From the IMG/VR virus record IMGVR_UViG_3300047994_000317, positions 1-27,706 of that record: a stretch of DNA of 27,706 nucleotides, one strand, 5' to 3'. Position numbers and translations under genes: made by a program. The notes below the pieces were generated by a model. The model searched no databases. It saw only the letters and a program-made list of their open reading frames with translations, and was not told the origin of the DNA. Source of the DNA: a virus. Below are positions 3,266 to 26,862 of the stretch, piece by piece. Each line of letters opens with the position of its first letter. Within the stretch, counting starts at the first letter, position 1.

Positions 3266-3280
3266 CACCATTAATTAGAA

Positions 3281-3330
3281 ACGGGACAATCCGGGACCAA
3301 ACGGGATGAAGTGGGATAGAACGGCAGAAA
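3281..3330 (+). repeat. Five 10-bp tandem units at the phage left end (candidate transposase sites)
   Basis: Units start at 3281, 3291, 3301, 3311 and 3321: acgggacaat, ccgggaccaa, acgggatgaa, gtgggataga, acggcagaaa. The shared GGGA core falls on the same helical face at each turn. The position just inside the inferred phage end suggests MuA-type end binding; this is inference. Confidence 0.55.
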
Positions 3331-12725: not shown

Positions 12726-13198
12726 GCGTGAATCCTGGGCGCCGGGCGCGGCTGGCGAAAGTGCATATCGCCAAAAAACAACTGCAGATGGAAGACGAGG
12801 GCTACCGCGAGTTGTTGCAACGAATTACTGGGCATGGCAGCTCCGCAAACTGTACGGATGCGCAACTAGACGATCTGTTGCAGGAATTTCGACGTTTGGG
12901 TTTCGAACCGAAACAGGAACCACCATCGCCGGGAGCTGAAAAAGAATACGTTCGGATGATCTACGCGCTATGGAGCGGTCTGAAGCCGTATTTGAGGGAT
13001 TCTTCGCAGGTCGCATTACGCAGCTTCGTGAAGCGGATGACCGGCGTGGATAAGGCGGACTGGCTTGGCCCGGAAGAAGCCAATGACGTGATTGAAGGGT
13101 TGAAGGCGTGGCTGGCGCGGGAGCGCGATCAGAAGCGGCCGCGCCATTCAGCCGCGCCGGCAAAGCATAACCGGCGGCCGGGTAAAACTGCTCATTGA
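12722..13198 (+). CDS. gemA: GemA-like regulatory protein (gp16, DUF1018)
   Basis: The 158-residue product shows the family pattern: RRARLAKVHIAKKQLQM, DEGYRELLQRITG with SSANCTDAQLDDLLQEFRRLGF (about residues 8-60), then an ALWSGLKPYL segment, FVKRMTGVDKADWL and a helical end. GemA of Mu modulates host gene expression and DNA supercoiling-related functions early in infection. It overlaps the upstream gene by four bases (ATGA) and the Mor/C gene by four. The tail from about residue 140 is very basic. Confidence 0.85.
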   Translation: MSVNPGRRARLAKVHIAKKQLQMEDEGYRELLQRITGHGSSANCTDAQLDDLLQEFRRLGFEPKQEPPSPGAEKEYVRMIYALWSGLKPYLRDSSQVALRSFVKRMTGVDKADWLGPEEANDVIEGLKAWLARERDQKRPRHSAAPAKHNRRPGKTAH

Positions 13199-13545
13199 AA
13201 GAGCTCTCCAACCTTATCGAGCTGCTCGGCGAGGAGTCGACGTTGAAGCTGGTTCAGGAGCATGCCGGCACGCGGGTTGGCCTGCCGAAGAAGATGCCGG
13301 AAGACCATCCGCTGCGCGCGCTGCTGGGCGATGCGGGGTTTGCGTTGCTGTGTCAATATTTCGGCGGATACGAGATTTCGGTGCCGGTGGCGCGGGCCTG
13401 GCGGTTCGAGATGTATACGGCCCAAGGCTTGACGCCAAAGCGGATCGCAAGGCTTTGTGGCTGCAGCGAGGACGCATTCTACAAGTACCGCGCCCGGAAG
13501 GGCAGCGACCGGCAATTGGAGATGGATTTCACTGCCCGCCGCTAG
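13195..13545 (+). CDS. Mor/C-family transcription activator
   Basis: The start is TTG 13195, overlapping the GemA stop. The product has 116 residues (Mor 129, C 140). It carries the family core LCQYFGGYEISVPVA (dimerisation strand, about residues 52-66), then a C-terminal helix-turn-helix ending in RLCGCSEDAFYKYRARKG. Mor and C bind dyads as dimers and recruit RNA polymerase to middle and late promoters. It is immediately followed by a perfect dyad (13541-13556) and the lysozyme gene, which is the place of C and Plys in Mu. I see only one such protein in the window, so it may do both the Mor and C jobs. Confidence 0.8.
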   Translation: MKELSNLIELLGEESTLKLVQEHAGTRVGLPKKMPEDHPLRALLGDAGFALLCQYFGGYEISVPVARAWRFEMYTAQGLTPKRIARLCGCSEDAFYKYRARKGSDRQLEMDFTARR

Positions 13546-13584
13546 ACCTGTCTAGCGTGCAGACTGTTCCGCCAGGGCATTAAT
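13541..13584 (+). promoter_or_regulatory. Candidate C-type late promoter before lysis genes (Plys)
   Basis: GCTAGAC-CT-GTCTAGC is a perfect 7-bp dyad at 13541-13556, overlapping the activator stop codon. About 31 bases from its centre lies ATTAAT (13579-13584), a possible -10. In Mu the C dimer binds about this far upstream of -10. A near-identical site lies before gpI (25833-25848). Confidence 0.65.
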
Positions 13585-13607
13585 TGGCCTCACCCACAGA
13601 GGCAATT

Positions 13608-14099
13608 ATGGACATCTTCCCGCCAAATACCGACCCTTTCCAGCTTATAAATCTCGCAGCGAACAAGCTGACGATCCCGTTTGAGGGTGTTCGGCTGGCG
13701 CCGTACCAGGACGTGCGCGGGATCTGGACGATCGGCACCGGGTCGACCTTCGATCTGGCAGGCAATCGGGTGACGGCGAACACGCCGCCGATTACCGAGG
13801 CGCAGAACCTGCTGCTGCTACGGCGCGAGATGTGGGGCGCGTTCATGGCCGTGGAAAATGGCGTGACGGCGCCGATCAACGTGAACCAGGCCGCCGCATT
13901 GGTGGATATGGCGTACAATGTCGGTGACGGGGCTTTTAAGGTTTCGACCGTGCGGTTGCGGTTCAATGCTGGCGCCACGATGGATGCCGCGAATCATCTT
14001 TTGGATTGGGACATGTCTGGCGGTGCGGTGGTCGAAGGCCTGGCGCGGCGCTGCGAGGCGCGGCGGGTGTTGTTTCTGACACCGGTGTGGCAAGCATGA
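13608..14099 (+). CDS. Phage lysozyme (GH24 endolysin)
   Basis: ATG 13608 follows AGAGG; an in-frame TTG at 13584 is less likely. The product has 163 residues, like T4 lysozyme (164). The catalytic triad E26, D35 and T41 (FEGVRLAPYQDVRGIWTIGTG) has exactly the E-8-D-5-T spacing of T4 E11, D20 and T26. It cleaves peptidoglycan during lysis. There is no clear N-terminal signal-arrest helix, so it probably needs a holin. It is the first gene after the candidate Plys promoter and overlaps the next gene by four bases. Confidence 0.93.
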   Translation: MDIFPPNTDPFQLINLAANKLTIPFEGVRLAPYQDVRGIWTIGTGSTFDLAGNRVTANTPPITEAQNLLLLRREMWGAFMAVENGVTAPINVNQAAALVDMAYNVGDGAFKVSTVRLRFNAGATMDAANHLLDWDMSGGAVVEGLARRCEARRVLFLTPVWQA

Positions 14100-14662
14100 T
14101 TTTCTGGTTTTTTTGTTTGGTGTTGTGTGTGGCCTTCGTCTGGCGGCTGCGCGGGGGCGCCCTGGCGACGCTGCTTGGCGTCAAGGTGGGCACAGACGCC
14201 ACGCGGGCCTTGTGCGCTGCGCTGATCGCGCTGCCGTTCGCGGCGCCAAATTCGCTGCCGGTTCTGCTACCAGCAGGGTTATATATTGCCCTTTTTGTTG
14301 GGGAAATGATCGCCGGCTGGGCGCCGTTTCAGGAAATGGGACTGATCCCAGCCAATATGCCGGAGCAGTCCTGGTTGCGGTGGCTGCCGCTGCATCTGGG
14401 GTTGAAGATCGATACGTTCTGGCATGATTTCGTCGGGATGGCTGAAGCGGGTGTGTTTTTCATGCTGCCGATGTTCATTGTTGGGTTGTGGTGCGGGCAC
14501 CATGCTTGGCTGCTGCTGCTGGCCGGGCTGGGGTTTGCGCCGGCTTATGCGGCGGCACGGTTGAACCTGCCGGCGATCCCGAAATTCGCGGAAGGTCAGT
14601 CCTGGGGCGAGGTGTTTGCCGGCGCGATCGTCGGCGCCGGGCTTTTCGTTGTTTTCACGTAG
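14096..14662 (+). CDS. Polytopic membrane protein of lysis cassette
   Basis: The ATG at 14096 overlaps the lysozyme stop. The 188 residues contain about five hydrophobic segments (near 1-16, 40-58, 60-72, 117-134, 138-155 and a last one at 175-188). It is an inner-membrane protein placed between the endolysin and the holin-like gene. Its size is larger than usual holins. I cannot name the family; a helper in lysis is suggested by context alone. Confidence 0.65.
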   Translation: MIFWFFCLVLCVAFVWRLRGGALATLLGVKVGTDATRALCAALIALPFAAPNSLPVLLPAGLYIALFVGEMIAGWAPFQEMGLIPANMPEQSWLRWLPLHLGLKIDTFWHDFVGMAEAGVFFMLPMFIVGLWCGHHAWLLLLAGLGFAPAYAAARLNLPAIPKFAEGQSWGEVFAGAIVGAGLFVVFT

Positions 14663-14954
14663 CGCCCCCGACTACGCGGCACGGGCGCTGGCGCGTGCGC
14701 TGCAGCTGATCGAAGGCGCGGACGGCAAGCTGGATGAGCAGGCGCTGCTTTCGATCCTGTTTGGAATGGCGCTGATATTCTTGATGGTTTGGGTTGTGGT
14801 TGTCCAGCATCAGCCATTCGAGCCGCTGACCTTTGCCGCGGCGGGCGCGACCTTTGTGGGCGGCTCGCTGGGCATGCTGACCGTGCGTTCCCGTTTTTCG
14901 AAGGATAATTCGAATGTCATTCCCGATTCCAATTCCCAGCCTTCAGGCAATTAA
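14649..14954 (+). CDS. Candidate holin (two-segment membrane protein)
   Basis: The start is uncertain: TTG 14649 is chosen, TTG 14616 is in frame. The roughly 100-residue protein has an amphipathic N-terminus, two transmembrane segments (about ALLSILFGMALIFLMVWVVV and PLTFAAAGATFVGGSLGML) and a charged Ser/Asn-rich tail, the usual layout of small holins. It overlaps the upstream gene by 14 bases and the i-spanin start by 41. Confidence 0.55.
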   Translation: MFSRSAPDYAARALARALQLIEGADGKLDEQALLSILFGMALIFLMVWVVVVQHQPFEPLTFAAAGATFVGGSLGMLTVRSRFSKDNSNVIPDSNSQPSGN

Positions 14955-15318
14955 AGCCGGCGCGATGGCGGTGGGTGCGGTTGCGCTGTTCAGCCTTGGT
15001 TTTGCTGGCGGCTACCGCTTGGCGCTACCGGAAGTGCAGAAGGCGCAACTGGCGCTAAGCGCGCAGGTGACGCGCGATGCGGAAGCGGCCGAGGCGGCGG
15101 ATGAGAAGGCGACGGCGCAGGTTGTTGCCGATACCAATGCCAGCAATGCGGCGCTGGCGGCGCATCAGGGGCGCGGAGAGGCGGTGCAGGCCAAGCTGGG
15201 GGACGCGCTTGCCGGCATCCCCGCGCAGGCGGCGCAGGCCGGACAGGACGGGCCGGTTGCGCCGGTGTTGGGGCAAGCGCTGACGGCGATTGCGGCGGCG
15301 CAGGCGGGTGGGAAATGA
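14914..15318 (+). CDS. Candidate inner-membrane spanin (Rz-like)
   Basis: ATG 14914 follows AAGGA. The 134-residue product has one N-terminal transmembrane helix (about residues 16-34, GAMAVGAVALFSLGFAGGY) and then a periplasmic Ala/Gln/Glu-rich helix (about 40-100), matching i-spanin topology. It would pair with the lipoprotein at 15581-15901 to disrupt the outer membrane at the end of lysis. The pairing is inferred from topology and place. Confidence 0.7.
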   Translation: MSFPIPIPSLQAIKAGAMAVGAVALFSLGFAGGYRLALPEVQKAQLALSAQVTRDAEAAEAADEKATAQVVADTNASNAALAAHQGRGEAVQAKLGDALAGIPAQAAQAGQDGPVAPVLGQALTAIAAAQAGGK

Positions 15319-15581
15319 GCACGCAAGACGAATGGGACGATTGCTACGGACAGGGTGTTCCTGCGCGGTCAACGCCAACGATTCTCCGGCCGCACAAACG
15401 CGGCGCGGACGGGTTTCCCACGAGAAGCTCTGTGGAGCACTGGACGCCGGCCGAGCTTGCGATCGTGGAGGCGATGCGCGCCGTTGAGGATGCCGGCGCG
15501 AGTCCAGCCCTGACGGATGCGATCAATTTGCTGCAGCGGGCGCGAGATCGCGTCGCCGATCATGTTGAAGGGATAGCCTGA
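15315..15581 (+). CDS. Hypothetical phage protein between spanin candidates
   Basis: The 88-residue soluble product starts at an ATGA overlap with the i-spanin gene and its stop shares one base with the next ATG. The centre has WTPAELAIVEAMRAVEDAG, a helical segment, and then LTDAINLLQRARDRVADH. No family was recognised. Confidence 0.6.
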   Translation: MSTQDEWDDCYGQGVPARSTPTILRPHKRGADGFPTRSSVEHWTPAELAIVEAMRAVEDAGASPALTDAINLLQRARDRVADHVEGIA

Positions 15582-15901
15582 TGCTCTTTCGACCCGCGCC
15601 GCGTAAGGCGCTTATCGTGGTTCAATTGGTTTTGCTGGCGGTGCTGGTCATCCTGGGGCTGGCGGGCTGCGCGGCGCCGGCGCCGCCGGCGGCGGTGGTT
15701 GAAACGCGCTACCAGGTTGTGCGGGTGACCTTGCCGCCGGGCCTGCTGAAATGCGCCGACGCGCCGCCGGTGCCGCAGGCGCCCACGCTGCAGAGCGAGG
15801 TTGCCGGCTATATGGTGCGGCTGTGGGAGGCCGGGCAGGATTGCCGGGATGATGTGGCCTCGATCGCGACGATCGAAAATGCGCCGCCGTCATCGCCATA
15901 G
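15581..15901 (+). CDS. Lipoprotein, candidate outer-membrane spanin (Rz1-like)
   Basis: The 106-residue product has a basic N-terminus, a hydrophobic stretch and a lipobox LAGC with Cys30, so it should be a lipoprotein. A Pro-rich segment follows directly (APAPPAA), as in Rz1 proteins, then LPPGLLKCADAPPVP and an AGQDCRDD end that is common in phage o-spanins. It would complete the spanin complex with the 14914-15318 product. Unlike lambda, the two are separated by another gene and not nested. Confidence 0.75.
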   Translation: MLFRPAPRKALIVVQLVLLAVLVILGLAGCAAPAPPAAVVETRYQVVRVTLPPGLLKCADAPPVPQAPTLQSEVAGYMVRLWEAGQDCRDDVASIATIENAPPSSP

Positions 15902-15904
15902 CCG

Positions 15905-16273
15905 ATGAACCCGGAATGGATACAAGCCCTAGCAGAGCTTGCTGGCCTTATCATCGTGCTTGGGAATGCCGCTTTCTGGGCGGTGATATACCGCATGCAG
16001 GCGAGCTTCGTGACGCGGGCGGAGCACGGTAAAATGGGCGCCCGCGTGGACAAGGTCGAAACCGATATCGACGACATCAACGAGGCGCTGGCTAAGGTTT
16101 TCACGAATGAGCAGGCCGAGCAGCTGTACAACCGATTGGGCGTGGTGGAGAAGCAAGGTGCGACCCTGATCGGCCAGCTTGAAGGGACGACGAACAGCCT
16201 GGGGCGCCTTGGGCATCAGCTGGACCTGCTTTTCAAAAACGAACTCGATAAAGGCCGGGATCACAAAAGATGA
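15905..16273 (+). CDS. DUF2730 family protein (Mu gp25-like)
   Basis: The 122-residue product has one N-terminal transmembrane helix (about residues 8-30) followed by a long coiled coil (about 42-115) with VDKVETDIDDINEAL and LYNRLGVVEKQGATL. This layout and its place before gp26/gp27-like genes match DUF2730 of Mu-like phages. The role is not established. Confidence 0.75.
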   Translation: MNPEWIQALAELAGLIIVLGNAAFWAVIYRMQASFVTRAEHGKMGARVDKVETDIDDINEALAKVFTNEQAEQLYNRLGVVEKQGATLIGQLEGTTNSLGRLGHQLDLLFKNELDKGRDHKR

Positions 16274-16569
16274 GTTTTGCAGAGACGCTGGCCGAGGATC
16301 GGCGCCTGATCATGCTGCGCGCGCTGGATGAGGCAGGTTTTTCCGCCAATGAAACGGTGCTGGGCCGGGTGACCGAGGAATTCGGGCATCACCCGACGCG
16401 CGATTTGATCCGCGCGGATATGAGTTTCCTGGCGCAGCATGGATTGATCCGGCTGGAGAAGATCGCTGCGCAGAGCGGCGAGCTTTGGATTGCGCATTTG
16501 AAGACGCCAGGCCAGGAAGTGGCGCAGGGCCGCGTGCATCCGGGTGTAGCACGGCGCGAGCCCGGCTGA
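16270..16569 (+). CDS. Mu gp26-like phage protein (winged-helix-like)
   Basis: This 99-residue protein has the pattern ED RRLIMLRAL, NETVLGRVTEEFGH, RDLIRADMSFLAQHGLI and IAHLKTPGQEVAQGR seen in the small gp26-type proteins of Mu-like phages, which look like winged-helix folds. It overlaps the preceding gene by four bases and the next by one (TGATG). Its role is unknown; position suggests head or packaging regulation. Confidence 0.75.
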   Translation: MSFAETLAEDRRLIMLRALDEAGFSANETVLGRVTEEFGHHPTRDLIRADMSFLAQHGLIRLEKIAAQSGELWIAHLKTPGQEVAQGRVHPGVARREPG

Positions 16570-17150
16570 TGGCGCGGCCTTCCAGCATCGACCGGCTGCC
16601 GGACGCGATTAAGGCCGCGATCGGGCAGCTGCGGCAGAGCGGGCATACGATCGACGAGATATTGGCGCATCTGGCCGATATGAAAACCCAGGTGAGCCGG
16701 TCCGCGCTGGGCCGGCACGTGAAGGGGTTCGACAAGATTGCCGATAAAATGCGGCAATCCCGCGACGTGGCGACCGCGTTGGTGCGCGAGCTGGGCGATT
16801 TGCCGGAGAGCAAGACCGCGAAATTGAATATCGAGCTGATCCATTCCGCGGTGATGGATCTGTTCATGAATGCGCCTGAGGGCGGCGAGGCGGACGCGGA
16901 CGGCAAGGCGGCGACGCAAGGCAACCCGATGGGCTTGATGATGCTGGCCAAGGCGCTCGACCACCTTGGGCGCGCCAGCAAGAGCAACGTCGAATTCGTG
17001 GCGCTGGCGGAGAAGCGCGCTGCCGATAAGGCGCGGCAGGAAAGCGTGGCCGCGGTGGAGGCGGTGGCGAAAGATGCTGGGCTTTCCAGCGACACTGTGA
17101 CCGCGATTAAAGAGAAAATTTTTGGAGTGAAGCCTGATGCGCTTGCATGA
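16569..17150 (+). CDS. Small terminase subunit (DUF3486, Mu gp27-like)
   Basis: I start at ATG 16569 (MARPSSIDRLP), sharing a base with the previous stop. The 193 residues match DUF3486: RPSSIDRLPD, AIGQLRQSGHTIDEILAHL, VSRSALGRHVKGFD and the long helical C-terminal half. This family supplies the DNA-recognition subunit of Mu-type headful packaging. The large subunit follows after three small genes, an unusual separation. Confidence 0.87.
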   Translation: MARPSSIDRLPDAIKAAIGQLRQSGHTIDEILAHLADMKTQVSRSALGRHVKGFDKIADKMRQSRDVATALVRELGDLPESKTAKLNIELIHSAVMDLFMNAPEGGEADADGKAATQGNPMGLMMLAKALDHLGRASKSNVEFVALAEKRAADKARQESVAAVEAVAKDAGLSSDTVTAIKEKIFGVKPDALA

Positions 17151-17370
17151 ACTGGCCGGTGACGAGAGCGAGCGGCTGCGGGCGTTTTTGCTAAGCCGGG
17201 TCCAGGCCGGGGTTGATCCGCGCGCCCTGGTTATCGGCTGCGCGGCGCAGCTTGGCCGGATGGCGGCGACCTGCACGCAAGCGGGGCATTTGGAAGACAC
17301 GCTTGAAACGCTGATCAATACGATGCGGTACAACGCGCTGTTGAACGGGCCGGAGGTGGGAAATGCCTAG
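17137..17370 (+). CDS. Hypothetical small protein in packaging region
   Basis: This 77-residue, mostly helical protein overlaps the small terminase by 14 bases and the GcrA-like gene by eight. It carries LAGDESERLRAFLLSRVQ near the start. No family was recognised. Confidence 0.55.
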   Translation: MRLHELAGDESERLRAFLLSRVQAGVDPRALVIGCAAQLGRMAATCTQAGHLEDTLETLINTMRYNALLNGPEVGNA

Positions 17371-17878
17371 AAAGGGAGAGAAAGGAATGTCCGGTTTTTC
17401 GCCGCCAAAAACGGAGGCGTTCAAGGCGCGGCTTCGCGCATTGTGGGCGACGGGACTGTCGGCCGCCAAAATCGCCGAGGCAATGAACGTGTCGAAAAAC
17501 TCCGTCTTCGGTCTTGCGCACCGAATGAACCTGCCGACGCGCCCTTCGCCGATCAAACGGAGCATCGATCCGCAGAGCGGGGAGGTTGTGAAACGGGAAA
17601 AAAGCGACCGGCTGACCCTGGCGCCGGGGAAGCAGACGCTGCCGCCTTTGGCCTGCGTTGATACCGTGGTGATACCCCCCCCTGCGCCGGTAATTATGCC
17701 GCTGCGTAAATCGGAGCCGTGCTGCTGGCCAATCGGCGAGCCCGGCAAGCCGAGCTTCCATTTCTGCGATGCGCCGAGCGTTCCGGGCAAGGCTTATTGC
17801 GAGGCGCACCGCGCGATCGGCGTGGCGGGAACCGGGTCGCTGCAGGCCAGAACCTTGAACAAGCTGGCCGCCCTATGA
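17363..17878 (+). CDS. GcrA-family cell-cycle regulator, phage-encoded
   Basis: ATG 17363 follows GGAGGTGGG; ATG 17387 is an alternative. The product has 171 residues (Caulobacter GcrA 173). The N-terminal helix-turn-helix (about 27-55: LWATGLSAAKIAEAM, VSKNSVFGLAHRMNL) is followed by RPSPI, a Pro-rich linker and the conserved C-terminal pattern CCWPIGEPG, FHFC, and YCEAHR (Cys120/121, 135, 146, His149). GcrA is an alphaproteobacterial sigma70-associated regulator that acts at promoters methylated by CcrM at GANTC. A phage copy could redirect host or phage transcription through that system; this is inference. It sits between the two terminase genes. Confidence 0.88.
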   Translation: MPRKGEKGMSGFSPPKTEAFKARLRALWATGLSAAKIAEAMNVSKNSVFGLAHRMNLPTRPSPIKRSIDPQSGEVVKREKSDRLTLAPGKQTLPPLACVDTVVIPPPAPVIMPLRKSEPCCWPIGEPGKPSFHFCDAPSVPGKAYCEAHRAIGVAGTGSLQARTLNKLAAL

Positions 17879-18066
17879 TCCCGGAGCCGCAAGCGCAGCA
17901 AATGGTGATGGCCGCCGTTCCCGATACCGGCGTTGCCGTGGAGGACGGTTTTGAGGCGTATGTGATGGGGTTCGAGCGGTGCGCCAACCCGTATTGCCTT
18001 GGCCTGCCGGAACACACGGCCTGGGATAATGGCTGGGAGCTGGCGCGGGATTATCATGGACGGTAG
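17875..18066 (+). CDS. Rmf/CrpP-like small protein
   Basis: The ATG at 17875 overlaps the GcrA stop, and the product has 63 residues. The C-terminal half reads GFEAYVMGFERCANPYCLG then WDNGWELARDYH, which fits the ribosome modulation factor / CrpP pattern (a G-x-x-A-x-x-x-G segment, NPY, and W-x-x-G-W-x-x-A). Rmf dimerises ribosomes and silences translation. CrpP-like proteins have been linked to plasmids and phages, with other proposed roles. The family call is from motif reading only, and the function here is open. Confidence 0.6.
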   Translation: MIPEPQAQQMVMAAVPDTGVAVEDGFEAYVMGFERCANPYCLGLPEHTAWDNGWELARDYHGR

Positions 18067-19654
18067 GACCTATGCCGGCCCTGAAGAATTGCCCGATGTG
18101 TTCTGCGGGTTTCAGCAGCGGTTTCTCAGCGCGTGCTCGAAATACGCCGTGCTGGTTTGGGAGAAGAGCCGCCGCACGGGTTTCTCATGGATGGCGGCGC
18201 TGCATGCCTGCCTGACGTCCAGCAGCGCCGCCGCCGCCGGCGGCATGGATACGTTCTACCTTGGTTACAACATGGAGATGACCCGCGAGTTCATCGACTA
18301 TGTCGGCGAATGGGCGAAGCTGCTCTCGGTTGCGGTAAGCGAGATGCAAGAAGAAATCTTCAAAAACCCAGACCATCCAGAAAAGGACATCCTGGCTTTT
18401 CGTATAATGTTCGCGAGTGGGTTCAAAGTGCTAGCCTTGCCTTCGGTGCCGCGGGCGCTGCGCGGCATGCAGGGCCTGGTGATCATCGACGAAGCCGCGT
18501 TCCACGACGATCTGGACGGCGTGATGAAGGCGGCGTTCGCGCTGCTGATTTGGGGCGGCCGGGTGATTATCCTCAGCACCCATAATGGCGATGCAAACCC
18601 GTTCAACGTGCTTGTGCAGGATATTCGTGCCGGGAGGCTGCCGTATCACCTTGAGCGGACCACGCTCGATGACGCGATTTCCGACGGGTTGTTCAAGCGG
18701 GTTTGCCTGAAGACAGGCGAGACCTGGTCGGCCGAGCGCGAGGTTGAATGGCGGAAAGAGCTAATCGCGATCTACGGCGCGAATGCCGATGAGGAACTGT
18801 TCGTCATCCCGAGCGCGGGATCTGGCGCGTATCTTTCAGCCGCGGTGATCGAGGCCAGGATGCGCGATGACATCCCGGTGCTGCGGCTGGATTTGCCGGG
18901 CAGCTTTTTGATGATGGCCGAGCATCTGCGCGTGGCGGAAATTAAGGATTGGTGCGAAGAAAATTTGCTGCCGGTGCTGAAGGATTTGAACCCGAAAGAG
19001 CCGCATGCGTTCGGGCAGGATTTTGGGCGCAAGCGCGACCTTTCGGTATTCTGGCCACTGGCGATCCAGAGCAACCTGGTTCTACGCACGCCGTTTTTGC
19101 TGGAGATGCGCAACGTCCCGCACACCTCGCAGAGCCAGATCGTATTTTATATCTGCGACCGGCTGCCGCTGCTGCGGGCCGGGAAATTCGATGCCGGCGG
19201 CAATGGCAGCTACCTGGCGGAAGTGACGATGCAGAAATATGGCGAGCGGATCGAGCCGGTGCTGCTGAGCGAGCCGTGGTACCGGGAGAACATGCCGCGC
19301 TGGAAGGCGCAGTTCGAGGACGGCACGATACTCATTCCGAAGGATCGCGAGGTGCTGGACGATCACCGCCTGGTGAAGCTGATCCGCGGCGTGGGGCGCG
19401 TGCCGGATGAGCGCACAGGCGAGAAGGATAAGAAGCGGCACGGCGACAGCGCGATCGCCGGCGCGCTGGCGGTGGCGGCCGCGAAGGCGGCGCCGGTGAT
19501 TTATGAATATGAGGCGGTGGGGCGCTTGCCCGTGGCGCAGGGCGGCCGGCAGGGATTTTACCGGACGGCCGAGGAAGCCAATGACGCGGATGATGCCGAG
19601 CAGGACGGCAGCCGGGGCTTTATGCCGAAGCTTTCGCGGAGGACTTACCAGTGA
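18056..19654 (+). CDS. Terminase large subunit (Mu gp28-like)
   Basis: I use ATG 18056, giving 532 residues; an upstream in-frame TTG lies at 17999. The ATPase half has a Walker A-like EKSRRTGFSW (about residues 36-45) and Walker B LVIIDEAAF (141-149, D145/E146). The C-terminal nuclease half begins around FGQDFGRKRDLSVFW (D322) and includes FDAGGNGSYLAE. It cuts and pumps phage DNA into the prohead, and in Mu packages phage DNA with flanking host DNA. The gene overlaps the Rmf-like gene by 11 bases and appears complete. Confidence 0.92.
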   Translation: MDGRTYAGPEELPDVFCGFQQRFLSACSKYAVLVWEKSRRTGFSWMAALHACLTSSSAAAAGGMDTFYLGYNMEMTREFIDYVGEWAKLLSVAVSEMQEEIFKNPDHPEKDILAFRIMFASGFKVLALPSVPRALRGMQGLVIIDEAAFHDDLDGVMKAAFALLIWGGRVIILSTHNGDANPFNVLVQDIRAGRLPYHLERTTLDDAISDGLFKRVCLKTGETWSAEREVEWRKELIAIYGANADEELFVIPSAGSGAYLSAAVIEARMRDDIPVLRLDLPGSFLMMAEHLRVAEIKDWCEENLLPVLKDLNPKEPHAFGQDFGRKRDLSVFWPLAIQSNLVLRTPFLLEMRNVPHTSQSQIVFYICDRLPLLRAGKFDAGGNGSYLAEVTMQKYGERIEPVLLSEPWYRENMPRWKAQFEDGTILIPKDREVLDDHRLVKLIRGVGRVPDERTGEKDKKRHGDSAIAGALAVAAAKAAPVIYEYEAVGRLPVAQGGRQGFYRTAEEANDADDAEQDGSRGFMPKLSRRTYQ

Positions 19655-19938
19655 GCGCCCCGATCGATGAGGACGATAAAGCCCGCATGGCTCAGTCCGA
19701 AGTGAAGCTGCTGGGCATCACCGTGGAGAAACTGAAATCGGTTAGCGAGCTGACTGCGGAGGAGCGGCGGTTTGTAGAGGCGATGGATCTGCAGCTCAAC
19801 GTCTTCCGCAAGATCGTGGAGCGCGGCGAGGTTCAGCGCATCAAGGATTTGGCGTGGAAGTACCGGCGCAAGATGCCTTCGCATTTGGCGCCGAAGCTGC
19901 CGCCGTATGATCCGATTGTAGTGGAGATGGGCCTGTGA
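19651..19938 (+). CDS. Hypothetical phage protein after large terminase
   Basis: The 95-residue helical, charged product starts at GTG 19651 overlapping the terminase stop and overlaps the glycosyltransferase start by four bases. The last part, YRRKMPSHLAPKLPPYDP, is Pro/basic-rich. No family was recognised. Confidence 0.6.
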   Translation: MSAPIDEDDKARMAQSEVKLLGITVEKLKSVSELTAEERRFVEAMDLQLNVFRKIVERGEVQRIKDLAWKYRRKMPSHLAPKLPPYDPIVVEMGL

Positions 19939-21008
19939 CGAAAATTCTTTTTATTTTGAAATACCGAGAGAACGATTATGGAGAGGAGCGGCGCCCATAT
20001 TCTCAGGGCCTGTCGAGCGGCCTTTTTAATAGCGCCAGCTACATATCCGATGCGCTCCGGCCTCAGTTTGAGACCGAACTGGTGCAGGTTGCCGATAATA
20101 ATTGCATCGATCGTGAGGTGACGCGGTTCCGGCCGGACGTCGTGATCATCGAAGCCTATTGGGTTGTGCCGGAGAAATTTGCGGTGCTGACCAAGCTGCA
20201 CCCGAACGTGCAATGGATTATCCGCAACCACTCCAACTCGCCGTTCCTGGCAAACGAGGGCATCGCGTATGGGTGGAGCACTGAATATGTGAAGCATCCG
20301 AATGTATGGATCAGCTCCAACCATCCGGCCGCCCAGCAAGAGTTCAAGGATCTGCTGCGCGTGGTTTTCGATTCGAAGTTCGGCGCCCGCTTTCAGAAAG
20401 CCGTTTACACGCCTAATTACTATCCTGTTCCGGATGAGGTGCCGACATACGCGCCTTATGCCGATCGAAGCTCGATCGATATTGGCTGTTTCGGAGCCAT
20501 TCGGCCACTTAAGAACCAGATGATCCAGGCGCTTGCCGCGATCGAGTGGTCGCGGCAAAATGGTAAATTTTTGCGCTTTCATATGAATGGAAGCCGCGTG
20601 GAGGGTAAAGGCGACCCGATACTCAAAAACCTTCAGTCGCTCTTCTCCAACATCGAGACGGCCAAGTTGATCGAACATCCTTGGCTTTCGAGGGCAGAAT
20701 TCCTCACCCTGGTTGCAAAGATGGACCTTGGGCTACAGGTTTCGTTCAGCGAGACGTTCAATATCGTGGCGGCAGATTTTGCGGTGTGCGGCGTTCCGAT
20801 TGTGGTGAGCCCGGAAATCGACTGGGTAGACCATCGCTTCCGCGCCAACCCCACATCGGTCGAGAGCATCTGCGCTGCGATCTCAAAAGCGCTGACCACG
20901 CATGGCTGGGTCCATAAGGACAGAACCATCGAGACGCTGCGCCTGCGCAATGCCGAGGCGCTCTCGGCTTGGGAAACCGGGATCGATACAGTCTTGGCGA
21001 TGTCATGA
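19935..21008 (+). CDS. Phage-borne glycosyltransferase (GT-B / GT4-like)
   Basis: This 357-residue protein starts at GTG 19935. Its N-terminal half has a Rossmann-like entry (KILFILKYREND) and the segments VVIIEAYWVVPEKF and WIIRNHSNSPFLANEGI (about 94-110). The C-terminal half has IGCFGAIRPLKNQ (about 183-195) and SFSETFNIVAADFAVCGVPIVVS (about 270-292), the nucleotide-sugar-binding E-x7-E-like region of GT4-type enzymes. It likely transfers a sugar to a phage or host product such as DNA, capsid or cell-surface glycan; the acceptor cannot be read from sequence. It lies between large terminase and portal, an accessory (moron) position, and its first bases are AT-rich compared with its neighbours. 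Confidence 0.8.
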   Translation: MTKILFILKYRENDYGEERRPYSQGLSSGLFNSASYISDALRPQFETELVQVADNNCIDREVTRFRPDVVIIEAYWVVPEKFAVLTKLHPNVQWIIRNHSNSPFLANEGIAYGWSTEYVKHPNVWISSNHPAAQQEFKDLLRVVFDSKFGARFQKAVYTPNYYPVPDEVPTYAPYADRSSIDIGCFGAIRPLKNQMIQALAAIEWSRQNGKFLRFHMNGSRVEGKGDPILKNLQSLFSNIETAKLIEHPWLSRAEFLTLVAKMDLGLQVSFSETFNIVAADFAVCGVPIVVSPEIDWVDHRFRANPTSVESICAAISKALTTHGWVHKDRTIETLRLRNAEALSAWETGIDTVLAMS

Positions 21009-21232
21009 CGCACAAACCGCTCGCAGGGATGTCGTTTGGTGAGCTGCATGCTGAGCTGATCGCGGCGACTGCGGCGGTGCAGGCGGTGGAATATCAGGAT
21101 GGGCTGGCCAGCTATATGGCGGTCAGGGATGCCGCCTGCGCGCGCAAGCGGGCCGTGGAGGTGGAGATCGACCGGCGACTGACCGAACTACGGATCGATG
21201 AAAAAGGGGGCACTATCGGTGCAGATTTGTAA
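21005..21232 (+). CDS. Hypothetical small phage protein
   Basis: I use ATG 21005, overlapping the glycosyltransferase stop. The 75-residue protein is helical (MSFGELHAELIAATAAVQA, then KRAVEVEIDRRLTELRI). It overlaps the next gene by 14 bases. No family was recognised. Confidence 0.6.
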   Translation: MTHKPLAGMSFGELHAELIAATAAVQAVEYQDGLASYMAVRDAACARKRAVEVEIDRRLTELRIDEKGGTIGADL

Positions 21233-21572
21233 AGAGCATTGGGAAAAGTTGCGGGCTGCAATCGAAAAACGTGGCCTATCACATCTCGTTGCAAATAGCG
21301 GCGAGCAAGCTTTCGAGAACATTATCTCGGAGCTCTCCGGTGAGAATGCGCCGCATGATCCGCTCATGTCCTGCAACTGGATGATCCATGGCCAGGCGCT
21401 CGAACGCGGCGGCCTGTATTTGATGGGGCAAAAGGAAGACGGAACCGCTTACTGCCCTATCTGCGAAGCGATATCTCACGGCGCTGGTGACGAGAAATTT
21501 TGGATCGATGGTCCAGCTGAGGCAGAGTTGACCTTTTGTCGAGAGCAAGGGTTGGTCCCAAATGTCCAGTGA
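21219..21572 (+). CDS. Phage protein with CPIC motif
   Basis: I choose GTG 21219 because AAGGGGG lies just upstream; ATG 21198 is in frame. The product has 117 residues. The pattern ICKEHWEKLRAAIEKRGLSHLV near the N-terminus (split: ICKEHWEKLRAAI and EKRGLSHLV), PLMSCNWMIHGQALERGGLYLMG and YCPICEA recalls a family of small phage proteins next to terminase/portal genes. Cys residues at the start and at CPIC could bind zinc. The function is unknown. It overlaps the portal start by 11 bases. Confidence 0.65.
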   Translation: MQICKEHWEKLRAAIEKRGLSHLVANSGEQAFENIISELSGENAPHDPLMSCNWMIHGQALERGGLYLMGQKEDGTAYCPICEAISHGAGDEKFWIDGPAEAELTFCREQGLVPNVQ

Positions 21573-23253
21573 TAGCGGCCTGGTCGACCAGTTCGGTTTT
21601 GCCATCCTATCGTCGGATATCGCGCAGCTTAAAGGCGAGATGGCTGCGCCAAGCAGCTTTTCCGGCCGGCCGCCTTTTGCCGGGCATCTGGCGTTCGGCA
21701 TCGATCCTGGGCGGCTTGGGATGATCATCCGGGCGGCCGATAATGGCTCGACGCGGGAGTGGTATATCCTGGCGGAAGAGATCGAGGAGCTTTTCAGCCA
21801 TTATTCCTCGGTGCTGGCGAAGCGCCGGCGGCAGGTTTGCCTGCTGCCGATGACGGTTGAAGCCGCAGAGGACGTGAAAGACGGCGAGAAGCATGCCGAC
21901 TTCGTGCGGAAATGGCTGCAAAAGAAGGTGCTGGCGCGGGCGATGTTCGATATCACGGACGCGATCGGCAAAGGCTATACCGCGAACGAAATCATCTGGG
22001 ATACGCGGCCGGACCGGGTTGAGCCGGCCGAGATCAAATGGCGGCATCAGCGCGATTTCGAGGTGAGCTGGAAAGACGGGCAGACGATCTGGCTGCGCGA
22101 CGGCGCCGGGTTTTTGGATCTGCCGCCGCATAAATTCCTGTTGCATGCGCATTGCAGCAAGAGCGGTGACCCCGTGCGCAGCGGGCTGACCCGCATGGTG
22201 GCCTGGCTGTGGATGTATTCGACCTTTACGCTGAAGGACTGGGCGCTGTTCGTGCAGGGCTACGGCTTGCCGGTGCGGGTAGGCAAATACGGGCCGACGG
22301 CATCCGACAGCGATAAGCGCACGTTGTGGCGGGCGGTGCGCGGCATCGCCGGCGACCTGGCGGCGATTATCCCCGATTCGATGGCGCTGGAGTTTATTGA
22401 AGCAAAGGGCGCCAATGACGGCGCCAGGCTGTTCACCGAACGGGCGAACTGGCTGAACTATGAGGTCTCGAAACTCGTGCTGGGTAGCACCGCCGGGACG
22501 GATGCGATTTCCGGCGGGCATGCGGTGGGACAAGAGCATCGCTCGGCCGAGCAGGATGTGGAGAAGTTCGATGCCGAGCTGCTGGGCGATAGCATCAGCC
22601 GGCAGATCGTGCAGGCGATGGTGGCGTTCACGTTCGGGCCGCAGGACGGCTACCCGGTTATTACCATCGGCCAGAAGGAACAGGTGCCGCTGAGCGACGT
22701 GATTGCGGGCGTTGCGGATCTCGGGCCGCTTGGCTTCACGGCAAAGACGCAGGAGATCCGCGACCGGTTGCAGCTTACGAAGCCGGAGGCCGGCGACGAA
22801 GTGATCGGGATGCCGCCGGCGGCAGGCGGAACCCGGGCCGGTGCAACCAACCCTGACGGCTCGCCGATCGCGAAGGCGGATTTGACGGTGAAGGCGAACC
22901 CGCATCCGGAGATCAACCCGAGTTCGGATGAGCGGGCGCTGATGACGCGGACCCAGGCGAAACTTTTTGGGCGCCTGGTGGCGATGCATACCGGCGGCGC
23001 CGGGCAGCTGATGGAGGCGCTGGAGACGCGCCTGGCGCGCGAGGCCGGCGGCGCGATGGCGGCGATGACCGACCAGGTGCGCGCCTGCATGGAGCAGGCG
23101 GAGGATTTGCCGGATTTCGCGGCGCGCGTGGCGAAGTTGGGGCTGGATGACAAGGCGTTCGCCACGGCGATGACGCAGGGCATGGCGCTGGCGCATGTGG
23201 CCGGGCAGTCCTCGGTGCTGGATGAGATCGCGCCGTTTGCGAGGGCGTCGTGA
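21562..23253 (+). CDS. Portal protein (DUF935, Mu gp29-like)
   Basis: The 563-residue protein matches the DUF935 Mu-type portal: KGYTANEIIWDTR, AEIKWRHQRDFEVSW, PHKFLLHAHCSKSGDPVRSGL, TLKDWALFVQGYGLPVRVGKY and LVLGSTAGTDAISGGHAVGQEH (long strings here are given in pieces of the gene between about residues 135 and 335). It forms the dodecameric DNA channel at the head vertex, contacts the terminase and nucleates head assembly. The C-terminal 150 residues are Ala-rich and less conserved. It overlaps the CPIC protein gene upstream and the next small gene by four bases. Confidence 0.92.
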   Translation: MSSDSGLVDQFGFAILSSDIAQLKGEMAAPSSFSGRPPFAGHLAFGIDPGRLGMIIRAADNGSTREWYILAEEIEELFSHYSSVLAKRRRQVCLLPMTVEAAEDVKDGEKHADFVRKWLQKKVLARAMFDITDAIGKGYTANEIIWDTRPDRVEPAEIKWRHQRDFEVSWKDGQTIWLRDGAGFLDLPPHKFLLHAHCSKSGDPVRSGLTRMVAWLWMYSTFTLKDWALFVQGYGLPVRVGKYGPTASDSDKRTLWRAVRGIAGDLAAIIPDSMALEFIEAKGANDGARLFTERANWLNYEVSKLVLGSTAGTDAISGGHAVGQEHRSAEQDVEKFDAELLGDSISRQIVQAMVAFTFGPQDGYPVITIGQKEQVPLSDVIAGVADLGPLGFTAKTQEIRDRLQLTKPEAGDEVIGMPPAAGGTRAGATNPDGSPIAKADLTVKANPHPEINPSSDERALMTRTQAKLFGRLVAMHTGGAGQLMEALETRLAREAGGAMAAMTDQVRACMEQAEDLPDFAARVAKLGLDDKAFATAMTQGMALAHVAGQSSVLDEIAPFARAS

Positions 23254-23483
23254 TACCCGTCCGGATTGAGGGCGCAAATCATATCATGCGAGGTGCAGGT
23301 TTTAATGACCTGCATGTGAAAATTGTTGCAGGTTCCTTCAGCGTATCCAGGTGGGAGCCGACGCCAGATGATCTGGTGCTCCTGAATGCTGGCGGCAGTG
23401 TAGAGCTGTGGGTCTATGGTGGTCAGCCGCCGGTTCTGATCATTGCGCAACCGCATGTCGAAGTAATTGACCCAGGGGGCTGA
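23250..23483 (+). CDS. Hypothetical small protein between portal and MuF genes
   Basis: The GTG start at 23250 overlaps the portal stop. The 77-residue protein looks beta-rich (VRIEGANHIMRG, DLHVKIVAGSFSVSRW, SVELWVYGGQPPVLII). No family was recognised. It ends two bases before the MuF ATG. Confidence 0.6.
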   Translation: MIPVRIEGANHIMRGAGFNDLHVKIVAGSFSVSRWEPTPDDLVLLNAGGSVELWVYGGQPPVLIIAQPHVEVIDPGG

Positions 23484-23485
23484 GG

Positions 23486-24676
23486 ATGCCCAGCACCGCG
23501 AGCGCGGTTGATCTGCCGTTCAAGGATGCGATCGATTTCTTTCGGCAGAAAATAGATACGCCATCCGCGCATTGGACGACGGTTATGGACGAGGCGCATG
23601 CGCGGGCCTTTGCGGTGGCGGGGGCGACGAAGACCGCGCTGATCGGGGATTTCCGGCAGGCGGTCGATAAGGCAATCTCCCAGGGTACCAGCTATGGCGA
23701 GTTCAAAAAAGATTTCGATGCGCTGGTGAAAAAATTCGGTTGGAGCCATACCGGCACGGCGGATTGGCGGGCGCGGATTATCTACAACACCAATCTTTCC
23801 ACCGCCTTCGCGGCCGGGCGCTATGCGCAGATGACGGAGCCGGATGTGCTGGCCGCTTTTCCGTACTGGCAATACCAGCATGTGAATTGCCCGAACCCCC
23901 GGCTGCAGCATCTGGCCTGGTCCGGCATGGTGCTGCGGGCGGATGATCCGTTCTGGGCAACCTGCTACCCACCCAATGGCTGGAATTGCCATTGCATCGT
24001 CTACAATCTTTCGCAGCGCGCTTTGGAGAAGACCGGCAGGAGCGGCCCGGATAAATCGCCGGCGCTGCAGTGGCGGGAATATGTGAACCGCGCGACCGGC
24101 GTGGTGACGAAATATCCGGCCGGCGTTGACCCTGGATTTGTCGGCAACCCCGGCCAGGCGTGGCTGCGCAATAAGCCGCAGGATTTGAAGGCGCCGCGCG
24201 TGCGGCCGGTGAGCCCGGCACCGCCGGTGCTGGCACCGGCCGGTAAGACGGCAGTCGCGCCGGCGGTGCTGCAAAAATTCATCGCGCAGCCGCAAGGGGC
24301 CGTGCAGGTGGGCGTGTTGGATGGGCACACGGCGAAAATTCTCGATGCATATTCGCGCAGAGTGCTGCTCTCAGCCGATACCATGGCAAAGCAAGTGCTC
24401 GAGCACCCGGAGCTGCCGGCGGATATCTATGCCGGCATCGATGCCCTGGTCGCGGCCCCCGAGGCCGTATTGAGCAACCGGCCCTATCATGTCCGCCTTC
24501 TTGGGCGCATTGGCGATGCGGCGGTGACCGCGGTGGTGAAGAAGACGCCGGCTGAGAATTTCGTGGTCAGCTTGCACCGGGTGCGCGCGGATTCGATCAA
24601 GCAGTTCTTCAAGCGCGCCAAGCTGATGGCTGGCGATGCGCAGGCGTTGTTGGCGTGGCTTGAACAGACGCGCTGA
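23486..24676 (+). CDS. MuF head-morphogenesis protein with C-terminal PBECR-like nuclease domain
   Basis: The 396-residue protein has a Mu gpF/gp30-type domain at about residues 20-175 (TADWRARIIYNTNLSTAFAAGR, then DPFWATCYPPNGWNCHCIV, with Cys160, Cys168, Cys170). A Pro/Ala linker follows (about 235-265), then a separate domain at 275-381: VLLSADTMAKQVLEHPEL, Y-x-x-I, VKKTPAENFVVSLHRV and IKQFFKRAKLM. That order (S-D-x-x-x-K, H-P-x-L, then a beta strand with S-x-H/R and a basic helix) resembles the PBECR barnase/EndoU/colicin/RelE-like nucleases found at the C-terminus of MuF proteins. The MuF part is needed for head assembly. The toxin-like domain may be injected or may act on host RNA; that is inference. 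Confidence 0.85.
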   Translation: MPSTASAVDLPFKDAIDFFRQKIDTPSAHWTTVMDEAHARAFAVAGATKTALIGDFRQAVDKAISQGTSYGEFKKDFDALVKKFGWSHTGTADWRARIIYNTNLSTAFAAGRYAQMTEPDVLAAFPYWQYQHVNCPNPRLQHLAWSGMVLRADDPFWATCYPPNGWNCHCIVYNLSQRALEKTGRSGPDKSPALQWREYVNRATGVVTKYPAGVDPGFVGNPGQAWLRNKPQDLKAPRVRPVSPAPPVLAPAGKTAVAPAVLQKFIAQPQGAVQVGVLDGHTAKILDAYSRRVLLSADTMAKQVLEHPELPADIYAGIDALVAAPEAVLSNRPYHVRLLGRIGDAAVTAVVKKTPAENFVVSLHRVRADSIKQFFKRAKLMAGDAQALLAWLEQTR

Positions 24677-24790
24677 TGGGGACTGCCAAAACCCCACAAA
24701 AGCACACAATGGGCCCCGGTCGGCAGATCTCACCGGGTCACAGCGCGTCTTGCGCATATATAGGCCAAAGCGGGCGGGAGATAAAGTGAA
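24677..24790. promoter_or_regulatory. Spacer before gpG with hairpins and possible promoter
   Basis: This 114-bp gap breaks the otherwise overlapping gene chain. It contains CCCGGT/ACCGGG arms around an 11-base loop near 24715-24740 and an AT-rich CATATATAGG near 24755, a possible -10. No -35 or T-run is clear. Confidence 0.3.
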
Positions 24791-25306
24791 ATGACCGCGG
24801 CGGTGTTCGAGGCCGTACTGGATGATAGCCTGGTGTTGGGCGCGCTGGACCGGTTGGCGGCGGCCGCGGCGGATAGCGGGCCGCTGCTGCGGATTATCGG
24901 CGATTACGGGGTTGATACCACCAAGCGGCGGTTTGAGGCCCAGGCCGCGCCGGATGGCACGCCATGGGCGGCGCTGAATTCCGCCTACGCCGCGATGAAG
25001 CCTTCCGGCTATAATATCCTGTTCCTGTCCGGCGCGCTGTTGAATTCACAGCATTGGGTGGCCGGCATCGGCGAGGTGAAGTGGGGGAGCGGCATGATCT
25101 ACGCCGCGGCCCACCAGTGGGGCGCGGTGATTACGCCGAAGACGGCCAAGGCGCTGGTGTTCAAGACCGGGCTGGGCGGCGCGCAGACCGTGCGGGTGCA
25201 ATCGGTGACGCTGCCGGCCCGGCCTTATCTGGGGTTGAGCGCGGAAGACAGGATCGAGATTCCGCTATTGGCGCAGGATTACCTGATCCGGGCGATGCGC
25301 GGCTGA
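24791..25306 (+). CDS. Virion morphogenesis protein (Mu gpG-like)
   Basis: The 171-residue product matches the Mu gpG / tail completion family: GDYGVDTTKRRFEAQAAPDG, PWAALNSAYAAMKPSGYNIL, LFLSGALLNSQHW, YAAAHQWGAVI and LPARPYLGLSAED (about residues 37-160). The R-F-x-x-x-x-x-PDG-x-PW and PARPYLG signatures are typical. In Mu, gpG acts in tail-to-head completion. The stop at 25306 overlaps the 3' end of the reverse gene by 28 bases. Confidence 0.88.
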   Translation: MTAAVFEAVLDDSLVLGALDRLAAAAADSGPLLRIIGDYGVDTTKRRFEAQAAPDGTPWAALNSAYAAMKPSGYNILFLSGALLNSQHWVAGIGEVKWGSGMIYAAAHQWGAVITPKTAKALVFKTGLGGAQTVRVQSVTLPARPYLGLSAEDRIEIPLLAQDYLIRAMRG

Positions 25307-25566
25307 GCGGCCGCCGGAAATGGTTGCCAGCCCGTAGCCATATCGCCCCAGCTCGCATGCCGGATTGTTGCACCTTGGCCGTGGCACCGTGAGCAGCGCG
25401 CGGATCTGCGCAGCTTGTCACTCGACGTATTCGGCCCCCAGCGGATGACGAAGGGCGCGATCGCCACCGCCTGCGAGTGATTGCAGGCGAGGCAATACAG
25501 CCAGACCCATCCGGGCTCCGTTTTTTGGAGCTGGCCCAAGGATAAGGTTGGGGAGGTGTCTGGCAT
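25279..25566 (-). CDS. Reverse-strand zinc-finger protein (alphaproteobacterial type)
   Basis: I use ATG 25566 (MPDTSPTLSLGQL), 95 residues; a longer frame opens at 25809 but its first 81 residues look non-coding. The pattern LGQLQKTEPGWVWLYCLACNH, FVIRWGPNTSSDKLRRSARCSRCHGQGA and WGDMATGWQPFP recalls a small uncharacterised protein family of alphaproteobacteria, with CLAC and CSRC forming a zinc knuckle. It runs against the late operon, between gpG and gpI, so it is a moron with its own promoter in the 25567-25830 region. The function is unknown. Confidence 0.75.
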   Translation of the reverse strand: MPDTSPTLSLGQLQKTEPGWVWLYCLACNHSQAVAIAPFVIRWGPNTSSDKLRRSARCSRCHGQGATIRHASWGDMATGWQPFPAAAQPRIARIR

Positions 25567-25872
25567 GGCGGCATAAAAGCATCGCGGTTCTGGGAGTCGA
25601 GTCCGGGGGCGATTTTCGGCCGAAATACAGCCGGAGCGCGCGGCGCGGCATGACGCGGGGATGACCGGAAGTTTAAGAGGTAAATAAAAGCGCTTAAAAG
25701 GGTGTTGTGCGGCGCGCCGGTAAAGTTCCGGGCAACATGGACCGGGGCGCGGTCCGGGGCGCTTCCCGGCGCGGCGTATTCGGATTAGCGTGAAGCGCAG
25801 AGCCCGCATAATTACGGGCGCATGAAATTCCCGCTATACATGTCTAGCGTGTAGCGCCCGGTTTTTGACGGC
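25567..25872. promoter_or_regulatory. Divergent intergenic control region between reverse gene and gpI
   Basis: About 306 bases hold no gene. Seen here are two adjacent GAGTC (GANTC) sites at 25594-25603, a hairpin with GGACCG/CGGTCC arms at 25739-25755, a repeated CCGGGGCGC, and GCCCG/CGGGC arms near 25802-25819. The late dyad lies at 25833-25848. The region should carry the promoters of both neighbouring genes. Confidence 0.5.
25833..25848 (+). promoter_or_regulatory. Candidate C-type late promoter dyad before gpI (PI)
   Basis: GCTATAC-AT-GTCTAGC is the one-mismatch counterpart of the perfect dyad before the lysozyme gene. Counting the flanks, 21 of 24 bases agree with 13539-13562. It stands 25-40 bases before gpI, where Mu has PI. 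No clear -10 box is seen; GGCATGGT lies at the expected distance. Confidence 0.6.
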
Positions 25873-26862
25873 ATGGTCTGCCGCATGGACGTTTCCTCCC
25901 ATACTGTATCGTTGCCGGCCGGCGCGGGCGCACCCGAATGGGTGCATCTTTTGCCGGCCGGTACCTTTTCCGGGGCGGATGGCAAACAGTTCAAGCTGAC
26001 AGATCCGGCGCGGGTGATCGCGGCATCGATGACCAACGGCAAATTGCCGCTGGATGAGAATCATTCCACGCAACGGGCGCCGGCCATGGGCGCGCCCAGC
26101 CCGGCACGGGCCTGGATCGTCGAGCTGCAGAGCCGCGAAGATGGCATCTGGGGCCGCCCGGAGTGGAACGAGTCCGGCACGGCTTTGATGACGGATAAAA
26201 GCTACAAGGGGCTGAGCCCGGTTTTTACCCACACGAAGGATGGCACGGTTATCGCGATTTTGAGCGCGGCGCTGACCAATAATCCGAACCTGACGCAACT
26301 GACGGCACTTCACACAAACGGGAATGATATGGACAAAATTGCGATTTGCACCGCGCTCGGCCTGGCCGCGACGGTGGATGATGCTGCGGTGCTGACGGCG
26401 CTGCAGACGCTGGCACAGTCCGGCACGGCGCTGCAGACCGCGCAGGCGGATGTGACGCGGCTGAGCACCGAGCGGGAGCAGCTTAAGCGGACGCATGTGC
26501 CGGCCGACCAGGTGGTGGCGCTGCAGACGCGCCTGGAGACGCTGGAGGTCGAGCGCAAGCGGGCGGCCGCGATCGCCTTCGTGGACGGCGCGATCGCCGC
26601 CGGCAAGGCGATTACCCCGGTGCGCGATTTATACATCGCGCAGCATGTGGCGGACCCGGCGACGACCGAGAAGCTGATCAACGCCATGGTGTCGATCAAT
26701 GCGCGCGGCGCGGGCGGCAAGGTGCCGGCGATGAACGACGCCGGCGAGGATGCGCTGAGCGACGCCGAGACCACGATGTGCACGAAGATGAACATCGATC
26801 CGAAAGCCTTTTTGGCGACCAAGAAGAAGATGGCGCCAACCACTGAAGGGAGTGCCGCGTAA
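25873..26862 (+). CDS. Mu gpI-like protease with scaffold domain
   Basis: This 329-residue protein begins at ATG 25873 or 25885 (the second is favoured if the promoter at 25833 is right). The protease half (about residues 15-145) has the Mu I pattern: WVHLLPAGTFSGADGKQFKL, NGKLPLDENHSTQRA, APSPARAWIVEL, GIWGRPEWNESGTALMTDKSYKGLSPVF (in pieces). The C-terminal half (from about 153) is a charged coiled coil, the scaffold. In Mu the protease processes the scaffold and is itself lost during head maturation. It ends one base into the next ATG. Confidence 0.9.
   Translation: MVCRMDVSSHTVSLPAGAGAPEWVHLLPAGTFSGADGKQFKLTDPARVIAASMTNGKLPLDENHSTQRAPAMGAPSPARAWIVELQSREDGIWGRPEWNESGTALMTDKSYKGLSPVFTHTKDGTVIAILSAALTNNPNLTQLTALHTNGNDMDKIAICTALGLAATVDDAAVLTALQTLAQSGTALQTAQADVTRLSTEREQLKRTHVPADQVVALQTRLETLEVERKRAAAIAFVDGAIAAGKAITPVRDLYIAQHVADPATTEKLINAMVSINARGAGGKVPAMNDAGEDALSDAETTMCTKMNIDPKAFLATKKKMAPTTEGSAA
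26329..26862 (+). CDS. Nested scaffold protein (Mu gpZ-like) from internal start
   Basis: ATG 26329 (MDKIAICTALG) is in frame inside gpI, preceded by GGGAA, and would give a 177-residue protein with a long coiled coil. Mu makes gpZ from an internal start in gene I in the same way. The ribosome-binding site is modest, so this product is inferred from the Mu precedent. Confidence 0.5.
   Translation: MDKIAICTALGLAATVDDAAVLTALQTLAQSGTALQTAQADVTRLSTEREQLKRTHVPADQVVALQTRLETLEVERKRAAAIAFVDGAIAAGKAITPVRDLYIAQHVADPATTEKLINAMVSINARGAGGKVPAMNDAGEDALSDAETTMCTKMNIDPKAFLATKKKMAPTTEGSAA

Follow-up and report, generated by a model that had tools for sequence, protein, structure and literature searches.

The closest described systems are the two activator-dependent steps of phage Mu. 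At the middle promoter Pm the activator Mor (PF08765) binds a 16-bp dyad element between -51 and -36, centred at -43.5 (PMC4287176; PMC4390567), and the promoter has a -10 box without a proper -35 element. Pm drives the middle operon producing C, and the late regulon of C comprises Plys, PI, PP and Pmom, with sites before the lysozyme gene and gene I; the lysis genes follow immediately on the activator gene. What the C sites have in common is a match of another kind, 10 bp long (PMC4461284). A late regulon activated by a Mor/C protein is, as such, already known from Mu.

The phage analysed here shares with Pm the position of a 16-bp dyad, the -10 box lacking a proper -35 partner and a homologous activator, and with the C regulon the two sites before lysozyme and gene I and the place of the activator gene. 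It differs from Pm in that the dyads belong to two late promoters, lys and I, with no sign of a middle step; the dyad sequence is also different and its arms are longer. When Mu was included as a control in the search for pairs of 7-2-7 dyads, no pair was found: its C sites are not matching dyads of this kind and are built differently. Compared with Mu, the new elements are private, co-evolving dyads, a site at gp46, an apparently direct step from activator to late genes, and a layout predicted to be leaderless. Neither operators for Mor/C proteins outside Mu nor leaderless late mRNAs in Mu-like phages were found described in the literature searched, from which subscription journals were largely missing, so novelty is unproven.

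Two matching dyads in a Mu-like contig

The window, that is, the whole stretch of viral DNA analysed (27,706 bases), contains a single Mor/C-type gene detectable by HMM search. It encodes a late activator of 116 amino acids (13195..13545, + strand; phrog_836, 5.4e-16) and directly follows a GemA-like gene (12722..13198, +; PF06252, 1.6e-29). The gemA stop overlaps the TTG start of the activator gene (TTGA, 13195-13198), an arrangement that may couple and limit activator synthesis; the genes of three relatives (L118, L119, L120) also start with TTG.

The preliminary description had claimed that two dyads, at 13541 and 25833, agree at 21 of 24 bases with their flanks, that they lie ahead of lysozyme and gpI, that the only Mor/C-type gene directly precedes the first, and that they form a two-site late regulon through which this protein acts. 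The coordinates and the match (13539-13562 versus 25831-25854) were confirmed. The first putative operator, GCTAGACCTGTCTAGC (13541..13556, +), is a perfect 7-2-7 dyad with the arms GCTAGAC and GTCTAGC around CT, and overlaps the 3' end of the activator gene, whose TAG stop (13543-13545) falls within it. Relatives L004, L037, L040, L041 and L053 give further evidence for a site at this place. The dyad is followed by a phage lysozyme gene (13608..14099, +; PF00959, 4.5e-30). The second, GCTATACATGTCTAGC (25833..25848, +; arms GCTATAC and GTCTAGC around AT), pairs at 6 of 7 positions, has support from relatives and precedes gene I for the head maturation protease/scaffold (25885..26862, +; PF10123, 1.3e-42). 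The claims about the downstream genes and the activator gene thus held. That of a two-site regulon held in part: the regulon is strongly supported by comparison, but the number two reflects the end of the contig. A scan of the whole record (27,706 bases) tolerating two mismatches gave no further copy, and the record stops at 27,706, ahead of the tail genes.

It could be argued that the two palindromes resemble each other by chance. Within the window, symmetry and matching are weak evidence, because GC-rich shuffles yielded 0.67 matching dyad pairs of like quality per window. For a direct 24-base match of at least 21 identities there were 0.2 pairs per shuffle, although three such pairs, GC-rich and coding, occur in the real sequence as well. 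A 23-base pattern allowing 3 mismatches did not occur in 100 shuffles, but this pattern was itself derived from both sites. Taken alone, the pair excludes chance only modestly and may be regarded as suggestive rather than decisive; the significance of the sites rests on comparison with relatives.

Dyads of related and cultured phages

Viral contigs were scanned for GCTANACNNGTNTAGCGTG. Eleven stretches matched, 8 of them in Mu-type late regions: one marks the end of the Mor/C gene ahead of lysozyme (L004), two precede gene I (L001, L008) and five follow gp45 (L005, L006, L007, L009, L011), gp46 being the next gene in four of the five. In one relative's contig, of 33.6 kb, lys, I and gp46 each had a perfect copy. 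When the symmetric pattern was used without the GTG flank, matches fell mostly in unrelated contexts. Among bacterial and archaeal genomes (257 Gb) a slightly tighter pattern gave a single, unrelated match (Amphibacillus), which offered no clue to a host lineage, and a search for close relatives with the Mor/C protein alone found none.

Gene I homologues were used as bait to collect 80 Mu-like loci. Near relatives whose gene I starts with MDVSS had a dyad that lay at -51 or -52 relative to the ATG and whose sequence varied. Among the phages the 16-bp dyad came in several versions, including GCTANAC (for instance GCTAAAC), GCTGACR, GCMACC and GCCCGCC; one example is GCTGACATGTGTCAGC. Each phage's dyad was seen again downstream of its own Mor/C gene. 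This agreement was quantified in 43 Mu-like phages having both a Mor/C gene and gene I, the score being the best word common to the 3' region of the Mor/C gene and the region upstream of gene I. The mean was 14.2 for regions of the same phage as against 8.7 with regions of other phages, and none of 10,000 permutations reached as high a value (p<1e-4). The matching is thus a computed result. Recurrence at the same genes together with this test all but excludes the chance reading, which was rejected on the evidence of the relatives even though shuffled windows do produce similar pairs.

A dyad scan that was independent of any Mor/C gene was made at 74 non-redundant gene I loci. In 36 of them a strong dyad was centred 44-46 nt before the in-frame ATG of gene I, forming a single sharp peak, whereas control bins of 5 nt held 1-5 loci. 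About half of the 74 loci had no strong 7-2-7 dyad at the expected place. These results make it very likely, in the absence of binding data, that each such phage keeps a private version of the site, placed 44-46 bases ahead of the codon with which its head and tail operons begin.

The further copies before tail genes that the preliminary description had anticipated were found in relatives with a readable tail region, where the phage's own dyad returns between gp45 and gp46 (weakly in L042). In a separate gp46 search (phrog_180) about 15 of 20 non-redundant loci had a dyad whose centre was 43-47 nt upstream of the gp46 ATG, and new dyad sequences appeared in several of them. The intact phage likely has at least three sites, and for its missing right part a GCTANAC dyad is predicted in the interval from gp45 to gp46. 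In Mu the corresponding promoters are PP, before gene P, and Pmom, whereas the tail site of the relatives is in the gp45/gp46 gap; no Mu-type site before gene P (gp44) or at mom was observed, and the window ends before these genes.

The gp46 promoters also showed an alternating CG run between dyad and -10 box (L148, L150, L153, L155, L157, L158, L159, L161, L162, L165, L167). A (CG)3 or longer run at nt 17-34 past the dyad centre was present in 12 of 15 gp46 promoters; the corresponding counts were 4 of 29 for gene I and 8 of 29 for lys. Such a run could conceivably tune promoter melting or twist.

The cultured phages B3, DMS3, RC1, ThpS-P1, TJ1 and RcapMu follow a like gene logic and have private repeated dyads at their late promoters, each of a different sequence; the papers searched contained no description of their operators. 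Four perfect sites of the form GGTGAA-N4-TTCACC occur in TJ1, at lysis, at gene I, ahead of a gp41-like gene and at gp46; B3 carries three dyads and RcapMu two identical ones. In RC1 and ThpS-P1, which have two each, the gene I ATG lies at nt 46; DMS3 also has two, but weaker, and its ATG is at nt 45. A single dyad, before gene I, was found in B23 (ATG at nt 45). No convincing dyad pair was detected in Sinorhizobium phage Aussie or Ochrobactrum POA1180.

The probable protein partner of the dyads

By sequence the activator belongs to the Mor/C family. The Pfam Mor model (PF08765) was matched by 8 of 16 aligned homologues (best 2.2e-7) but not by the window protein itself, for which hhalign against Mu Mor gave an E value of 4.3e-5. 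The fold of Mor is an intertwined dimer with a C-terminal HTH. For the window protein a single-chain model was confident (pLDDT 87), and a fold search of the PDB with it returned generic HTH proteins only. The HTH occupies about residues 76-101, with CSEDAFYKY as the recognition helix.

Operator classes accompany recognition-helix classes: GCTANAC dyads occur with [ST]E.A.Y[KR][HY] helices, and GCCCGCC dyads with helices of the E..[VG]..KL type, such as ITESGVDKL. By rank regression, similarity between operators was associated with similarity of the recognition helix (0.28) and of the rest of Mor/C (0.34), but not of gene I (-0.03, p 0.65). The N-terminus of Mor/C carried an operator signal at least equal to that of the helix; the protein is therefore identified better than the residues.

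The regulon is strongly supported because three results coincide: the matching of sites within one phage, a geometry equal to that of Mor on Pm, and the tracking of Mor/C rather than gene I. We consider it very likely that the dyads are the operators of the phage's own Mor/C activator in a co-evolving late regulon, an inference drawn by computation, without binding, footprint or RNA-end data. The earlier claim that they form the binding site of the Mor/C protein is in this sense supported by comparison.

An alternative is that the dyads bind another protein, such as a repressor, Ner, the GcrA-like protein or a host factor. In its favour, the phages have several HTH proteins and binding data are missing. 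Against it, the sites are found at late promoters only, the site of a host factor would not vary phage by phage, the geometry equals that of Mor at Pm, and similarity of the operators goes with Mor/C, gene I serving as the control and other phage HTH proteins having been left out of the comparison. This alternative was judged very unlikely. The GcrA-like cell-cycle regulator gene (17363-17878, +; PF07750, 5.3e-21) has the lysis genes on one side and the terminase genes on the other. GcrA is a regulator of alphaproteobacteria, and its presence in the phage therefore points to an alphaproteobacterial host.

If the dyads are Mor/C operators, the following sequence of events can be proposed. The activator gene, the last after gemA and presumably in the early operon, would supply a product that, as a dimer, occupies the 16-bp dyad between -51 and -36, in the absence of a proper -35 element. 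The bound activator would bring the sigma-70 polymerase of the host to a weak -10 box and so switch on the lysis/packaging unit, the head unit from gene I onwards and, outside the contig, the baseplate unit from gp46. Each lineage's dyad would stay matched at all of its own late promoters while the activator changes. Binding, dimer formation, activation and timing are all inferred. Autoregulation of the activator gene through this dyad was rejected, since the scans showed no such site upstream of it. A cascade of Mor followed by C with a middle promoter was not seen, and there was no third operator-like dyad in the window, but the record may be incomplete.

Promoter geometry and the inferred starts of gene I and gp46

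Promoters were aligned on the dyad centre (32 in the lys set, 32 in the gene I set). In both sets RTG occupied nt 9-11 after the centre, the place of -35 to -33. An A at nt 34, the place of -11A, was present in 25/32 lys and 24/32 gene I promoters, and a T at nt 38, the place of -7T, in 25/32 and 19/32, respectively. The -10 box and the fixed geometry are computed features, and only RTG stands at -35; activation of sigma-70 polymerase at such a promoter is inferred. With the geometry of Mor on Pm applied, +1 corresponds to nt 44 past the dyad centre.

In the window the right flank of the first dyad is GTG at 13557..13559 (+), in the -35 to -33 place. The probable -10 region of Plys, TTAATTG (13580..13586, +), was placed from the dyad centre and is a weak match, and from the same distance the transcript is inferred to start near 13592. 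This leaves the lysozyme mRNA a leader of about 16 nt, with AGAGG ahead of the ATG. At the second dyad GTG occupies the same place (25849..25851, +) and the -10 box of PI is CATGGT (25872..25877, +); across the family an A recurs at nt 33/34 past the dyad centre and a T at nt 37/38. The PI transcript is predicted from geometry, without RNA-end data, to start at 25884-25885. The true start of gene I is the ATG at 25885, 45 nt past the dyad centre, from which the N-terminus MDVSSHT is invariant among relatives; the ATG at 25873 was rejected, as it sits in the -10 box. The gene I ATG has no Shine-Dalgarno sequence, unlike that of Mu, which has a leader with one.

Among the phages the gene I ATG was located at nt 44 (5 phages), 45 (11), 46 (11), 47 (1) or 48 (1) past the dyad centre. 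An SD-like 4-mer preceded none of 29 gene I ATGs, while 31% of control ORFs had one (p 6e-5). With the ATG at +1 to +3 and no Shine-Dalgarno sequence, the late mRNAs starting at gene I and gp46 are therefore read as leaderless, their predicted starts coinciding with the ATG or lying no more than two bases from it. For gene I this is likely, as inferred from activator geometry, the -10 box and the missing SD without RNA data; for gp46 it is inferred from geometry, again without RNA ends. The window lysozyme and RcapMu gene I are exceptions having leaders. Two annotated gene I starts are probably wrong: the CTG codon at 19857 in B3 (L139), where the ATG at 19887 fits the predicted +1, and the internal codon at 19163 in DMS3 (L126), where the ATG at 19037 does.

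It remains possible that the operators are real but that the gene I and gp46 mRNAs start further upstream or elsewhere and are not leaderless. The starts were deduced from geometry and a degenerate -10 box without RNA ends, and both Mu gene I and the window lysozyme have SD-bearing leaders. This is nevertheless unlikely: the -10 signal has a fixed place in two site sets, the N-terminus is invariant from the predicted ATG, no SD is present, and a like spacing recurs at gp46.

The dyads might also act at the ends of operons, as intrinsic terminators or hairpins in the RNA, rather than as protein operators. They do lie at unit boundaries, after the early operon and before gene I, and the RcapMu dyad extends into a long GC-rich stem followed by TTTT. 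Nearly all sites, however, have RTG instead of a T run, arm mismatches are not enriched in G-U (8/50), the dyad sequence is shared by the sites of one phage and tracks Mor/C, the distance to the -10 box and ATG is fixed, and one site, before gp46, is within the run of tail genes. On account of the flanks, the mismatch types and the tracking of Mor/C this explanation was rejected as very unlikely.

Taking the dyads as activator operators, a bolder reading is that Mu-like phages at large use a fixed late promoter template for their head and baseplate operons: a private dyad, RTG, a 17-18 bp spacer, a -10 box and an ATG at +1 to +3. The main structural mRNAs would be leaderless, and activator and operators would drift together as lock-and-key pairs. 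We lean towards this reading as a whole, though by a narrow margin. If true, it would provide a natural library linking recognition helices to half-sites, with many natural activator/operator pairs available for one protein family, and related phages sharing a host would be insulated from each other's late activator. The two dyads of one window would then lead to a general rule from which the late promoters of Mu-like phages, their transcription starts and corrected gene starts could be predicted, and leaderless translation would be predicted for phage structural operons.

Two other parts of the window may be mentioned. Between the terminase and portal genes an ORF (19935-21008, +) weakly matches a family of phage glycosyltransferases (phrog_2170, 5.6e-5). 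Positions 1-3300 contain two ORFs with AIDA-type adhesin stalk repeats, including a near-identical 300-bp duplication (1-300 and 2281-2580, 98%); this region is possibly host DNA at the prophage end.
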